DNA of 64,000 nt from Arcanobacterium phocae. GTDB lineage: Bacteria; Actinomycetota; Actinomycetes; Actinomycetales; Actinomycetaceae. The translations under genes and the position numbers were made by a program. Where the stretch lies: contig NZ_LT629804.1 of the NCBI RefSeq assembly GCF_900105865.1, positions 1,178,001 through 1,242,000 on the forward strand, read 5' to 3'. Every line of letters starts with the position of its first letter. Position 1 is the first letter of the stretch. Positions 30,227 through 33,781 of this stretch are shown here, piece after piece. The notes beneath the pieces were generated by a model. It was given only the letters and a program-made list of their open reading frames with translations, made no database searches and was not told the DNA's origin.

Positions 30227-30913
30227 TCAGATTGTTGAGCTTGGCTGTGTACTCGCTCGATCGGCCGGATCATCAGGAATACTAATCTTCCACGTGATAA
30301 TCGGTTTTCCAGTTGGCTGCGCTGATCCGTCGGCTGGTTCAATCGTAACGAAGACGTCGTCGCCATCTTCTGGCATGGCATCAATAAACGAGAATGGGCC
30401 AGTTTTGTTCGGTTCGTACATTCCAGCTTTGCGGATGTTACCAGCGTGGCGTACCCACACCGCTAAGCTCTGACCTGCGGGAGCTTGTAATTCTACCGGC
30501 ATCGTTACCGCGGCCATCTCCATATCGTGTGACCAGGTCAAAGTCACCACGTGACCATCTGGCATCGTGTCAGCAACCCGTACCACATCTTGGGCTTGAT
30601 TGAGTTGCGCATAATGACTGGTGTATTCCATCGAATCCATGACGCTCCAACGGCCGACACCAACTCCGGCAGCTACCAGTACCACGGCCGCCGCCATCTG
30701 GGAAACTGCACGCACAACTCGCAGTTTTCGTGGCTTGAGTTCGACGACGTTACCATCGGTCGTTGTTGACTCCGGTGATCGTGATTCTTGTGGCAGGTGG
30801 GCAATCGTCTCCAACAAATGCTCGCGCACGGCAGGAGAAGGGGCAACAGGTGTCAAACTCGTGCCTAGTGTCCCCGCAATATCGTCGGGGAAGGTGAGAT
30901 CGTCGTCGCTCAT
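30227..30913 (-). CDS. rskA: Anti-sigma-K factor RskA-like protein, short N-terminus
   Basis: 228-aa membrane protein: a short cytoplasmic part, one membrane helix at about residues 70-89 (QMAAAVVLVAAGVGVG), and an extracytoplasmic RskA C-terminal domain (AVWVRHAG, GPFSFIDAMP, FVTIEPADGSAQPTGKPI). In the known mycobacterial protein an anti-sigma domain of about 65 residues precedes the PPAHLRTAI-like segment; here only about 26 residues precede the equivalent SPAVREHLLETI, so much of the sigma-binding part appears absent. Its ATG overlaps the sigK stop, fixing the start. Expected to restrain SigK until proteolysed; the shortened domain makes that uncertain. Confidence 0.82.
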   Translation of the reverse strand: MSDDDLTFPDDIAGTLGTSLTPVAPSPAVREHLLETIAHLPQESRSPESTTTDGNVVELKPRKLRVVRAVSQMAAAVVLVAAGVGVGRWSVMDSMEYTSHYAQLNQAQDVVRVADTMPDGHVVTLTWSHDMEMAAVTMPVELQAPAGQSLAVWVRHAGNIRKAGMYEPNKTGPFSFIDAMPEDGDDVFVTIEPADGSAQPTGKPIITWKISIPDDPADRASTQPSSTI

Positions 30914-31500
30914 CGTTCCTGCTCCATAAATCTTTTCATTTTAGCTAATCCGTCTCTGATCCGAGTTTTTACTGTTCCAAGTGGAACACGTTGATGGTTG
31001 GCAATTTCACGGTGTGTTAATCCGGTGAAAAACGCAAGTTTGATAGTGGAAGAATGCGGTTCACCTACGAAGTCAAGCATCCGGCGAACCTGTTCCGATT
31101 CGAGGCGTTGTTCCACGCTTTCAAGCGTGTGATCGTAGTCGATATCGGTTGCCACATAGGCAGTGTCGCGCTCGCGGCTGGCCTGAGAAGACCGCACTCG
31201 ATCTATCGCCCGCCGGCGCGCAAGTGTTACCAGCCACCCGCGGGCTGTGCCGCGGGCGCTGGCGAACTGTGGCGCTTTTTGCCACACTTCTAAAAACACT
31301 TCCTGTAACACTTCTTCCGATTGGGAGTGGTCACGCAAAATCTGGCGGATCAGCGCCAAAACCTTGCCACTCCAACGATCGTAGAAAGTCGCGAAAGCTT
31401 GGCGGTCGCCGTCAGCGATGCGTCCGAGCAGGACATCGTCAAGATCTGATGGTTCAGGTATCACGGCTTTATCGTACGGGGTTTGAGCCAAGATTGTCAC
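30910..31500 (-). CDS. sigK: ECF sigma factor SigK-like
   Basis: 196-aa ECF sigma factor. Region 2 (about residues 28-95) includes FYDRWSGKVLALI and RGTARGWLVTLARRRAIDRVR; region 4 (about 135-190) has LTHREIANHQRVPLGTVKTRI, the -35 reading helix-turn-helix. GTG start at 31500, 6 nt after the dipZ stop. Pairing with an RskA-like gene and dipZ mirrors the mycobacterial SigK regulon, so SigK is the best name. It probably recognises the CAATCC-N16-CGAACT promoters at 33288-33389, which would make the operon autoregulated. Confidence 0.88.
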   Translation of the reverse strand: MTILAQTPYDKAVIPEPSDLDDVLLGRIADGDRQAFATFYDRWSGKVLALIRQILRDHSQSEEVLQEVFLEVWQKAPQFASARGTARGWLVTLARRRAIDRVRSSQASRERDTAYVATDIDYDHTLESVEQRLESEQVRRMLDFVGEPHSSTIKLAFFTGLTHREIANHQRVPLGTVKTRIRDGLAKMKRFMEQER

Positions 31501-31506
31501 TGCGTC

Positions 31507-33255
31507 TCACCCGAAAGTGAACGAGTACAATTCCACACCTGGTGAGACAGTGAGTTCTACTATTCCTGAAGACCCCGGGGTAGTGCTGACAATTTCTTGA
31601 GCGTTAGGCACGCCAGAGATCTTCATGGTTGATTCTTTCCCATCGTTATTCCACGTGATAGTTCCTTCGCCAGAAGCTACCAAGTAGACGTGTGCGCCAC
31701 GCCAAGAAAGACGCAACTTACCGTCAGCACTAACTGGAGTAATCGATTGCGGGCTAACCTTCCAGGTTCCGTTCAGCGCAAAGGTATCTGGCTTGAGTGA
31801 CTCTGGAAAAGAGGCGTCGATGGTGCCGTTCGATAATGATCCGCCAGCGTAGCGTTCGGCACGCGCAGAACCGAGATATGTTTCGGGAGTACGCGGAGCG
31901 CGAGCCGAAGCGTCGTCATCGGCATCAGAGAAAATTGGCTCGGGAAGGGTGACGTTCGGGTTGGCTTCACGCAAGAGGTCACGGATATGACGTTCGGTGG
32001 TTGCCTCGCCGCCTTCGCCATATTTGATTGCGCGTAGCTGGCCGGTTGCGTCAGCAAGGTAATGGGCTGGCCAGTAGTGGTTGTCAAAGTTTTGCCAGGT
32101 TACAAGATTTGAATCGACAGCAATCGGGTAAGTGATACCAAGTTTATCTCCACCAGCTTTAACATTCTCTGGAACTTTTTCGAAGGCGTACTCTGGTGAA
32201 TGAACACCAATGACCTGCAGACCGGAATCCTTATAAGTTTCGTAGAGTTTTTCGATTCCAGGAATTGAACGCTGGCAGTTGATGCACGAGTAGGCCCAAA
32301 AATCGACGAGGGTAACTTTCTTCGCGCGGTCTGCTTCGGTCAGTGGCTGATTATCGGGAGTGTTGTACCAGGCGACTGCGCCACTGATTTCGGGGAGTTG
32401 ACCACAGTTGGCGAGTTCCGTTGCACCGTCGACGCAAGGACCCGACTGCTGGGTGGGGTAAAGCGACTCAGTGCTCTTTTGTAACGATGACGTCCAGTCC
32501 GGTAGTGCGCGTTGAATCTTAGCCGGAACATCGAAAACAATGCCTAGGGCTAGACCGATCATGGCAATACCGGCGATGCTACGGATAAGTTGTTGCCGAG
32601 TGCGGAAGGTGCTAATACGTTCGGTGAGTTTTTGTCCTGAGAGGGCAAAGAAGAGGAGCGGAATTGCGGTTCCGATACCGAAGGACACTGCGAGAGCAAC
32701 GGTGTCAGCACCGATCTTTCCGGTTGTTCCGGCGACTGAGACAGCAGCTAGCACTGGTCCAGCACATGGAACGTAGGCGGCTCCAAGGACAACCCCGAGC
32801 CAGAAACCATTTGACGATGTAGAGTTTCCGGTTTTAGCGAAACGTGAGAATGGCTTTTCGAGCAGTTCCATGAGCCGGGGCACGAGCATCGCGATACCAA
32901 TAAGCAGGAGCATAACAACGCCGGCCCAGCGGATAAAATCTTGCGGAAGATTTAAGAGCGTGAGCAGAGCTGAGCCAAACAGGGTAAAGGTGGTAAAACT
33001 GAGTACCAATCCACCGACGACGGCGTAGGGACGCCATTTGGAGACTGGCTTCATAGCCTTAGCAGTTACGCTTGAAGTAGCTGAAGCACTATTGAGGGAA
33101 ATAAGATTTCCGGACAATAATCCGGGAGCTGTGCTCGACTTGGTTGTTTGTGCTCCTTGAGCGCCGGATAGGAATATGACGGGGAGTACCGGCAAAATAC
33201 AGGGTGATATTCCGGTGATAAATCCGCCAAGGAGACCGATTAATACTAGAGACAT
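31507..33255 (-). CDS. dipZ: DipZ: CcdA-like transporter fused to thioredoxin-like domain
   Basis: 582-aa inner membrane protein that would carry reducing power outward to disulfides. Residues 1-245 are a CcdA/DsbD membrane part with the two redox cysteines C19 (ISPC) and C164 (VPCAGP). A TlpA/AhpC-like domain follows with CINC at C324/C327 and a conserved NHYWPAHY. The C-terminal ~110 residues match the beta-rich domain of mycobacterial DipZ. The start at 33255 has AGGA at 9 nt. First gene of dipZ-sigK-rskA, behind an ECF-like promoter. Confidence 0.92.
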   Translation of the reverse strand: MSLVLIGLLGGFITGISPCILPVLPVIFLSGAQGAQTTKSSTAPGLLSGNLISLNSASATSSVTAKAMKPVSKWRPYAVVGGLVLSFTTFTLFGSALLTLLNLPQDFIRWAGVVMLLLIGIAMLVPRLMELLEKPFSRFAKTGNSTSSNGFWLGVVLGAAYVPCAGPVLAAVSVAGTTGKIGADTVALAVSFGIGTAIPLLFFALSGQKLTERISTFRTRQQLIRSIAGIAMIGLALGIVFDVPAKIQRALPDWTSSLQKSTESLYPTQQSGPCVDGATELANCGQLPEISGAVAWYNTPDNQPLTEADRAKKVTLVDFWAYSCINCQRSIPGIEKLYETYKDSGLQVIGVHSPEYAFEKVPENVKAGGDKLGITYPIAVDSNLVTWQNFDNHYWPAHYLADATGQLRAIKYGEGGEATTERHIRDLLREANPNVTLPEPIFSDADDDASARAPRTPETYLGSARAERYAGGSLSNGTIDASFPESLKPDTFALNGTWKVSPQSITPVSADGKLRLSWRGAHVYLVASGEGTITWNNDGKESTMKISGVPNAQEIVSTTPGSSGIVELTVSPGVELYSFTFG

Positions 33256-33287
33256 AATGTGAAGTCCTTTCATCAAGTTCTATGAGT

Positions 33288-33315: not shown

Positions 33316-33361
33316 TTTTCGTTGCAGATTTACTATGTGGGTCAGGTCACCTAAACTAATC

Positions 33362-33389
33362 CAATCCGTATGGTCACTGGCGTCGAACT
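33362..33389 (+). promoter_or_regulatory. ECF-type promoter of the repeat lipoprotein
   Basis: CAATCC (33362-33367), a 16-nt spacer and CGAACT (33384-33389), an exact match in boxes and spacing to the dipZ promoter on the other strand. Start codon 50 nt downstream. Confidence 0.75.
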
Positions 33390-33439
33390 AGTTATGAAAG
33401 ATCACTGAGGCATCCGCCTCGCAATATAAGGAGAACTTT

Positions 33440-33781
33440 ATGAATATTCGTCGAATCACCGCTGGTGCTGTTGTTGGTTTACTGTCTGTCGCCGGTCTTG
33501 CCGCTTGCAATTCTGATGCTGATAATAAAATGGATGACGGCAAGATGGATGATAAGCAGATGTCAGAAACCAAGATGGAAAACGACAAGATGTCGGATGA
33601 CAAAATGAGTGACGACAAGATGAGCGATGACAAGATGTCTGATGGCGAGAAGATGTCGGATGACAAAATGAGTGACGACAAGATGAGCGATGACAAGATG
33701 TCTGATGGTGAGAAGATGTCGGATGACAAAATGAGTGACGACAAAATGTCAGACGATAAGATGAGCGACGATAAGAAGTAA
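33440..33781 (+). CDS. Met/Asp-rich repeat lipoprotein
   Basis: 113-aa lipoprotein. The signal peptide ends in lipobox LAAC (Cys23). The mature part is almost only a five-residue repeat, K-M-S-D-D, with periodic MSDGE variants, giving methionine about every fifth residue between acidic pairs. Such composition could bind metals such as copper, or absorb oxidants through methionine; neither is shown. It resembles the pentapeptide MXKDX repeat proteins in style. AAGGAG lies upstream. It is divergent from dipZ-sigK-rskA with a matching promoter, so it is probably a SigK target. Confidence 0.85.
   Translation: MNIRRITAGAVVGLLSVAGLAACNSDADNKMDDGKMDDKQMSETKMENDKMSDDKMSDDKMSDDKMSDGEKMSDDKMSDDKMSDDKMSDGEKMSDDKMSDDKMSDDKMSDDKK
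33587..33744 (+). repeat. 63-bp tandem repeat, about 2.5 copies
   Basis: Unit 1 (33587-33649) and unit 2 (33650-33712) differ at one base (GGC/GGT); a third, partial copy runs to about 33744. Each unit encodes 21 residues. The repeats are in frame, so copy number changes would only lengthen or shorten the lipoprotein. Confidence 0.9.

Follow-up and report, generated by a model that had tools for sequence, protein, structure and literature searches.

Closest described systems

The locus described here lies in a 64,000-nucleotide stretch of the Arcanobacterium phocae genome (the window; C1:1178001-1242000 of 1,998,242 bases) and consists of a dipZ-sigK-rskA gene string and a divergent gene for a methionine-rich (Met-rich) repeat lipoprotein. 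Its closest described relative is the SigK-RskA regulon of Mycobacterium. M. tuberculosis has a SigK-dependent promoter at each of mpt83, mpt70 and dipZ, and what triggers the system is called obscure (PMC9861118, accessible part); the signal of SigK-RskA is likewise stated as unknown in the accessible parts of PMC7509140 and PMC9861118. The former also reports that 94% of the ECF18 and 56% of the ECF19 proteins keep a pair of SigK cysteines (ECF, extracytoplasmic function sigma factor), which the others lack. In Brucella, according to the accessible part of PMC8315932, a Met-rich MXKDX peptide and MsrQP are under the control of the ECF sigma factor BcrS/AbcS, hypochlorous acid (HOCl) induces the system, which adds to resistance, and divergent sigma-dependent promoters serve the Met-rich peptide and the sigma gene.

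The Arcanobacterium locus resembles the Mycobacterium regulon in its SigK, RskA and DipZ relatives, in the SigK-type promoter of each target and in the small size of the regulon. It differs in the Met-rich repeat lipoprotein that stands in for the fasciclin, in the joining of dipZ, sigK and rskA into one string divergent from the lipoprotein gene, in a SigK devoid of cysteines, and in the presence of a phased Crp/GlxR-type operator. Judged by its sequence, it is a SigK regulon of the known kind, here with a changed target and an added operator. With BcrS/AbcS-bcrXQP (ECF16) of Brucella, as far as the accessible account goes, and with mrpX-yedYZ of Azospira it shares an ECF sigma factor and an anti-sigma factor beside a Met-rich envelope peptide and an envelope reductant; unlike in those systems, the ECF group is another one and DipZ is found instead of MsrQP or YedYZ. 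The Azospira work reportedly concerns a Met-rich peptide together with YedYZ and an ECF sigma/anti-sigma pair. As in MrpX and the MXKDX peptides, an envelope protein with a Met-rich 5-residue repeat is placed under an ECF sigma factor (the promoter being recognized by sequence); unlike them, lipoproteins of the Arcanobacterium type match TIGR02953 (MXKDX) weakly or not at all, and no partner envelope methionine sulfoxide reductase was found in this genome. The Brucella peptide, unlike the Arcanobacterium protein, is not called a lipoprotein in the accessible part of PMC8315932. The same gene order with a different lipoprotein is found in three FAS1-lipoprotein/dipZ-sigK-rskA divergons of another family in the same order (L127-L129), which have CAATCC or CCATCC with CGAA on both sides (spacers N16 except one N17) and differ in their fasciclin lipoprotein, in having no operator at phased gaps, and in an RskA ectodomain with 1 Met. 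Among the matches listed in the open-licence literature, neither a SigK with a Met-rich lipoprotein nor a Crp/GlxR site at SigK promoters was found.

The preferred explanation is a two-promoter SigK regulon in which SigK, probably together with GlxR, would switch on a sacrificial Met lipoprotein and a thiol electron carrier as a defence against envelope oxidants, similarly to the Met-rich-peptide regulons that hypochlorite induces in proteobacteria. Taken as a whole it is considered fairly likely; the predicted regulatory part is very probably correct, and methionine-oxidant defence as the function has about an even chance.

Gene and promoter layout

The same predicted SigK-type promoter stands before dipZ-sigK-rskA and before the divergent lipoprotein gene, and a candidate operator lies whole helical turns from each -35 box. 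The features are as follows.

30227-30913, minus strand: rskA, membrane anti-sigma-K factor (PF10099 RskA_C, 55 bits, cut-off 29.4)
30910-31500, minus strand: sigK, ECF sigma factor with a GTG start (PDB 4nqw, NF007228)
31507-33255, minus strand: dipZ, with DsbD_TM, redoxin (CINC) and C-terminal Thioredoxin_10 domains (Pfam; PDB 2hyx, 5cyy)
33288-33315, minus strand: SigK-type promoter of dipZ-sigK-rskA, CAATCC-N16-CGAACT (-35 box 33310-33315, -10 box 33288-33293), exact match, kept in relatives
33337-33350, minus strand: Crp/GlxR-type operator GTGACCTGACCCAC, 7/8 of GTGA-N6-TCAC
33362-33389, plus strand: SigK-type promoter of the lipoprotein gene, CAATCC-N16-CGAACT (-35 box 33362-33367, -10 box 33384-33389), exact match, kept in relatives, also in trans
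33440-33781, plus strand: Met-rich lipoprotein gene (lipobox LAAC; Met-rich repeat)
33582-33776, plus strand: tandem repeat of 15 bp (MSDDK type), which Tandem Repeats Finder reports as 30- and 63-bp units as well

The first-pass annotation had proposed that the lipoprotein gene and dipZ-sigK-rskA are read away from each other, with identical ECF-type boxes and spacer on both sides. Coordinates and strands bear out the divergent layout (plus for the lipoprotein gene, minus for the other three), and CAATCC-N16-CGAACT does occur twice without a mismatch. Because sigK follows dipZ after a 6-base gap and overlaps rskA by 4 bases on the same strand, the three genes likely form an operon. The best start of dipZ is the ATG at 33255, after AAAGGA, with an open frame that extends to a TTG at 33276. 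Should transcription begin some 7 nt beyond CGAACT, dipZ would have a leader of about 26 nt and the lipoprotein gene one of about 44 nt. We infer promoter activity and positive feedback at this locus from these sequence features.

In each of the two libraries searched, SigK is the nearest match of the sigma factor: the top PDB match is SigK 4nqw (E 1.2e-36) and the top NCBIfam model is NF007228 (208 bits, under the cut-off of 226). It contains 0 cysteines, and the SigK cysteine pair is not present. RskA is the only PF10099 match in the whole genome. Residues 270-582 of DipZ match the solved DipZ ectodomain (PDB 2hyx, 5cyy) at E ~5e-92.

Many random matches in the genome, which the first-pass annotation had named as a refuting outcome, did not turn up for the exact motif: CAATCC/CGAACT with N15-17 occurs only 2 times in the genome, both at this divergon, 46 bp apart and correctly oriented. 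The reversed pattern, scanned in the same way over the whole genome, gave 0 matches, 60 shuffles of the 64-kb window gave 2 exact matches in total, and the analytic chance expectation for the exact motif in the genome is 0.24. With one mismatch allowed there are 11 matches in the genome, the exact pair included, and 3 for the reversed control; 7 of the 9 additional sites fall within long reading frames. With two mismatches allowed the window is not enriched, with 5 sites against 5.68 expected, so that the evidence lies in the exact pair, its placement and its conservation, not in the loose motif. Drifted boxes elsewhere in the genome would escape this search.

Two one-mismatch sites were looked at as further targets. 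One (L008) lies about 210 bp before a 94-codon frame near an RNase PH gene. The other (L004), CAATCC-N16-CCAACT at C1:113044-113071, lies 42 bp ahead of a gene for a GDSL hydrolase and has matching sites in G109 and G054, hence in 3 of the 9 genus genomes. Its mismatch hits the CGAA core, which is kept by all 35 box pairs counted below (CGAA being a condition of that scan), and no operator accompanies it, at best 4/8 of the GTGA-N6-TCAC positions being present (5/8 at its counterpart L088). It is possibly a third SigK target, or else a coincidence with an ordinary promoter, and is not counted as a target.

Conservation in the family

A sample of 151 genomes of the family contained 40 with a SigK-like match, and wider DNA was read for 26 of these besides the own locus. 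dipZ directly precedes sigK in 17 of the 26 loci and in the window, giving 18. The Met-rich lipoprotein gene is divergent from dipZ in 14 of the 18, lies on another contig in 3, and was not found in 1. Box pairs were scanned as NNATC[CT] and CGAA at N16 or N17 only, CGAACT being demanded for the displaced genes. A pair was present before dipZ in 18/18, before linked Met-rich genes in 14/14 and before displaced ones in 3/3, against about 0.03 chance pairs per strand per region by a hand estimate. Within the two spacer lengths searched, the 35 pairs have N16 in 31 cases and N17 in 4. Exact CAATCC-N16-CGAACT on both sides is found in the window, G109, G054, G024 and G121, which make up 5 of the 7 module-bearing genomes of the genus; outside these five the boxes drift to NNATC[CT] and CGAA[CT]. 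The pairs span six genera, and the boxes are conserved among relatives though the spacer sequences differ.

In G138, G112 and G100 the lipoprotein beside dipZ is rich in Gln and Gly (Q/G-rich) with 1% Met, and its gene has no SigK-type box pair. The Met-rich genes of these genomes, on other contigs, carry TCATCC (G138), ACATCC (G112) and CCATCC (G100), each with N16-CGAACT. As far as the boxes tell, the SigK-type promoter tracks the Met-rich protein and not the gene position, which is the strongest support for the regulon. At L055-L057 the divergent place beside dipZ is taken by a Q/G-repeat lipoprotein gene without a SigK box.

SigK is matched at E 1e-15 or better in 7 of the 9 genus genomes, G096 and G135 being without, so that evidence on loss comes from these two genomes only. 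In G096 sigK is in pieces, the lipoprotein frame is shrunk to 45 residues and its -35 box no longer fits; no dipZ or rskA match remains. In G135 no lipoprotein was matched at E 1e-4. Three of the 20 lipoprotein search matches (G004, G035, G130) were dropped as unrelated proteins without Met repeats, and the lipoprotein of G039, missed by this search, was found in the frame list. At L054 a second lipoprotein-like frame (9% Met) stands in tandem behind the first Met-rich one; it starts 777 bp upstream of dipZ.

Targets in other actinobacteria

No match to fasciclin (PF02469, MPT70/83 type) was found in this genome, in agreement with the first-pass view that mpt70/83 are missing here. In the own family 6 of the 151 genomes have PF02469, 3 of these with its gene right next to sigK. 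DipZ is matched in 36 of 394 class genomes; 31 dipZ loci were read (29 of the 36, with L013 and L014). FAS1-like lipoproteins lie beside or divergent to dipZ in several of the 31, four being confirmed as fasciclin. The lipoprotein of L118 is MPT70-like (E 7.6e-78), and the locus has the boxes CCATCC-N16-CGAATC and CAATCC-N16-CGAATA. Eleven of the 20 dipZ loci outside the family have CAATCC, CCATCC, CGATCC or CAATCG with CGAA near dipZ or the (fasciclin) lipoprotein gene, with spacers mostly of N16 and twice of N17; in the other 9 no box pair was found near dipZ. Since extra-family dipZ and fasciclin loci carry boxes of the same kind, the motif of the Arcanobacterium locus is the general SigK box and it is the target that has changed. 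The overall proposal of a SigK-like regulon with a Met/Asp-rich lipoprotein in the place of MPT70/83 is thus supported by the best matches of the sigma factor, by boxes kept in relatives and by the missing fasciclin.

At L140 (family f12, g171) a lipoprotein of another kind, also Met-rich (14% Met), is encoded at 970-1272, minus strand, just before sigK and divergent from dipZ. It is possibly an independent case of the same pairing of Met-rich lipoprotein and sigK; no CGAA-type box pair was found at this locus. A secreted-looking small protein rich in Met, Lys and His (11% Met) is encoded near a dipZ relative at L143 (582-812, minus strand) in a 1.5-Mb genome, and no sigK match was found within the 4.5 kb read.

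Crp/GlxR-type operator

The phased Crp/GlxR-type operator is an element absent from the first-pass annotation, as are the in-trans promoter of the displaced lipoprotein genes and the resemblance to Met-rich peptides under hypochlorite-responsive ECF sigma factors. In the window, GTGACCTGACCCAC lies 21 bp from the dipZ -35 box and 11 bp from that of the lipoprotein gene. Across the family, each of the 33 promoters counted has a GTGA-N6-TCAC site (6/8 or more positions) upstream of its -35 box at a gap of 0, 10, 11, 21 or 22 bp, while 1000 shuffles averaged 1.3 such sites and never gave more than 5. The 33 are the 35 less the two of L046, near-identical to the window (L012 and L046 are the same A. 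phocae locus). Two facts weaken this result: the 33 promoters share 20 physical operators from six genera and hence are not independent, and the helical gap set was picked after inspection of the data. Anywhere in the 60 bp upstream, the count is 33 against a shuffle mean of 9.2 and a maximum of 17. At 7/8 or better there are 31 sites, none at gaps other than the phased ones, and at 6/8 a few additional sites occur at gaps of 6, 26, 35, 38, 39 and 42. The three displaced Met-rich genes carry perfect GTGAN6TCAC sites. In 11 dipZ loci outside the family the best sites listed reach 4-6/8, with no 6/8 at phased gaps and one 7/8 at gap 45; in two FAS1-sigK loci of the own family they reach 5-6/8, the 6/8 being at gap 7. 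At L061 and L064 the operator touches the -35 box on either side, the three elements making up a single inverted repeat. Operator centres would be near -41.5, -52 and -62.5 if the start is 7 nt after the -10 box.

A single cNMP-binding protein is encoded in the genome (cyclic nucleotide monophosphate; Crp-type, PF00027), with Crp/GlxR structures as its nearest relatives and PDB 4byy, which we take to be GlxR, as its best match (E 2.2e-68). GlxR is the probable reader of the operator. Rex was set aside as operator protein, as the six inner bases vary freely.

The lipoprotein and the proposed function

The lipoprotein has a signal peptide of 22 residues ahead of the lipobox Cys; its 91-residue mature part is 18% Met, 32% Asp and 20% Lys, and 13 of the 15 Met-to-Met intervals are 5 residues. 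In 14/14 lipoproteins measured, out of 18, Met makes up 10-18% of the mature part, and the length of the repeat differs between species. Membership in MXKDX (TIGR02953) was rejected on score and the family kept as a likeness.

In the proposed mechanism, SigK would be released from RskA by an oxidant acting on the envelope, either reactive chlorine or a comparable agent that oxidises methionine, perhaps through oxidation of methionines in the RskA ectodomain. SigK, aided by GlxR, would then transcribe dipZ-sigK-rskA, in positive feedback, and the lipoprotein gene. The Met/Asp/Lys-repeat lipoprotein, probably disordered and anchored outside the membrane, would be a sacrificial methionine sink, and DipZ would pass electrons across the membrane and keep envelope thiols, perhaps a putative methionine sulfoxide reductase, reduced. 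The likeness to MXKDX peptides suggests, by analogy, a methionine sink against reactive chlorine. The RskA ectodomains of the 18/18 dipZ-sigK genomes contain 6-13 Met (8 Met and 0 Cys in the window). The disulfide discussed for mycobacterial SigK in the accessible part of PMC7509140 cannot be the sensor here, because this SigK has no cysteine; for the hypochlorite sensor HprS, the accessible part of PMC10151825 reports two periplasmic methionines as the sensing element. A further match of the DipZ redoxin domain is to the thioredoxin domain in the MsrA/MsrB fusion 2h30 (E 8.4e-6), which allows that DipZ may have a role in methionine repair. The fullest version, a methionine-oxidation response with RskA as the sensor, the lipoprotein as the sink, DipZ as the electron supply and GlxR as a second input for cyclic AMP or carbon status, is tentative and is judged rather doubtful.

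A Met-rich RskA ectodomain looked at first like a clean marker of Met-lipoprotein systems (6-12 Met in 9 proteins, 1 Met in 7). The marker was broken by a set of 34 loci, in which the downstream frame was taken mechanically, and the ectodomain was kept only as compatible evidence.

Several observations weigh against defence by a methionine sink. Met-rich RskA ectodomains occur also in three FAS1-linked systems of the same family (6-7 Met) and at Kocuria and Rothia loci (10 and 7 Met). The lipoprotein scores 23.3 bits with TIGR02953, under the cut-off of 41, and only 4 of 17 lipoproteins match that model at E 0.01. One genome, G043, has dipZ-sigK and no Met-rich gene that could be found, and three g4 genomes hold the Q/G-rich lipoprotein next to dipZ. 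No methionine sulfoxide reductase is found within the regulon. The one MsrA and the one MsrB of the genome have no signal peptide visible by eye. Every one of the 9 genus genomes, those lacking the module included, has both families. The MsrP-type family PF00174 has no match in this genome and is found in 2 of the 9 genus genomes. As no Msr was found in the regulon or the envelope, methionine recycling is left without a known enzyme.

Alternative explanations

The lipoprotein may instead be a metal-binding envelope protein of the copper type, in which case the SigK module would respond to metal or metal-plus-thiol stress and DipZ would serve disulfide or metalloprotein maturation. Met at even spacing, together with Asp, might serve as a ligand for Cu(I) or divalent metals, and 4 of the 17 lipoproteins weakly match the metallophore precursor model HvfA (best E 0.0055). 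The explanation is nevertheless improbable, as the mature part of the window protein has no His and its sole Cys is that of the lipobox; among the frames at 24-40 kb of the window no metal transporter or sensor was recognized, only five proteins there having been family-scanned. No likelier is a surface spacer or antigen, that is, a disordered acidic brush replacing the MPT83-type fasciclin, with incidental Met and a SigK signal unrelated to oxidants. The varying repeat length suits a spacer, as does the occupation of the divergent place by the FAS1 lipoprotein in L127-L129 and by the Q/G-rich one in the g4 genomes. Against a spacer stands the Met share of 10-18% in the proteins measured, and where position and composition are uncoupled the SigK-type promoter goes with the Met-rich gene, not the Q/G-rich one.

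On the regulatory side, the operator could be a repressor site, for GlxR or another factor, that holds both promoters down. This fits the operators abutting both -35 boxes in L061 and L064, and also the centre near -52, which is not a classical activating position of Crp and so counts against activation; the spacing in helical turns (0, 10-11 and 21-22 bp), with no site at 7/8 or better elsewhere, suits an activator touching RNA polymerase, and repression is held unlikely, though slightly less so than the two explanations above. That the two boxes are chance occurrences or recent duplicates unused by SigK is extremely improbable. With about 0.24 exact matches per genome expected, a chance match is conceivable, but two were found, correctly oriented and 46 bp apart, and such pairs are kept over six genera with different spacers, also in trans.

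Under the SigK regulon with a sacrificial lipoprotein, the replacement of the antigen by a Met-repeat lipoprotein yields a concrete, testable guess for the SigK signal, namely methionine oxidants, with GlxR as a candidate second regulator. Should the fullest version of the mechanism, judged rather doubtful above, hold, the locus would parallel in a Gram-positive organism the hypochlorite defence of the MrpX type, put together from SigK parts, and would suggest envelope oxidation as the signal of the SigK/MPT70 regulon. The comparison also suggests separate origins, in actinobacteria and in proteobacteria, for an envelope module that joins an ECF sigma factor with a Met-rich protein and a reductant.

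Neighbouring features

33809-33841, no strand assigned: inverted repeat of 11 bp with a T-rich stretch after it, probably the terminator for the lipoprotein gene (read directly)
33860-34435, minus strand: flavodoxin-domain gene with a weak HemG-type match

The terminator scan on the 3' side of the lipoprotein gene gave a smaller stem alone, at 33830-33843. The flavodoxin-domain gene converges on the lipoprotein gene and adjoins it also in G109, G054, G024, G121 and the decayed G096 locus.

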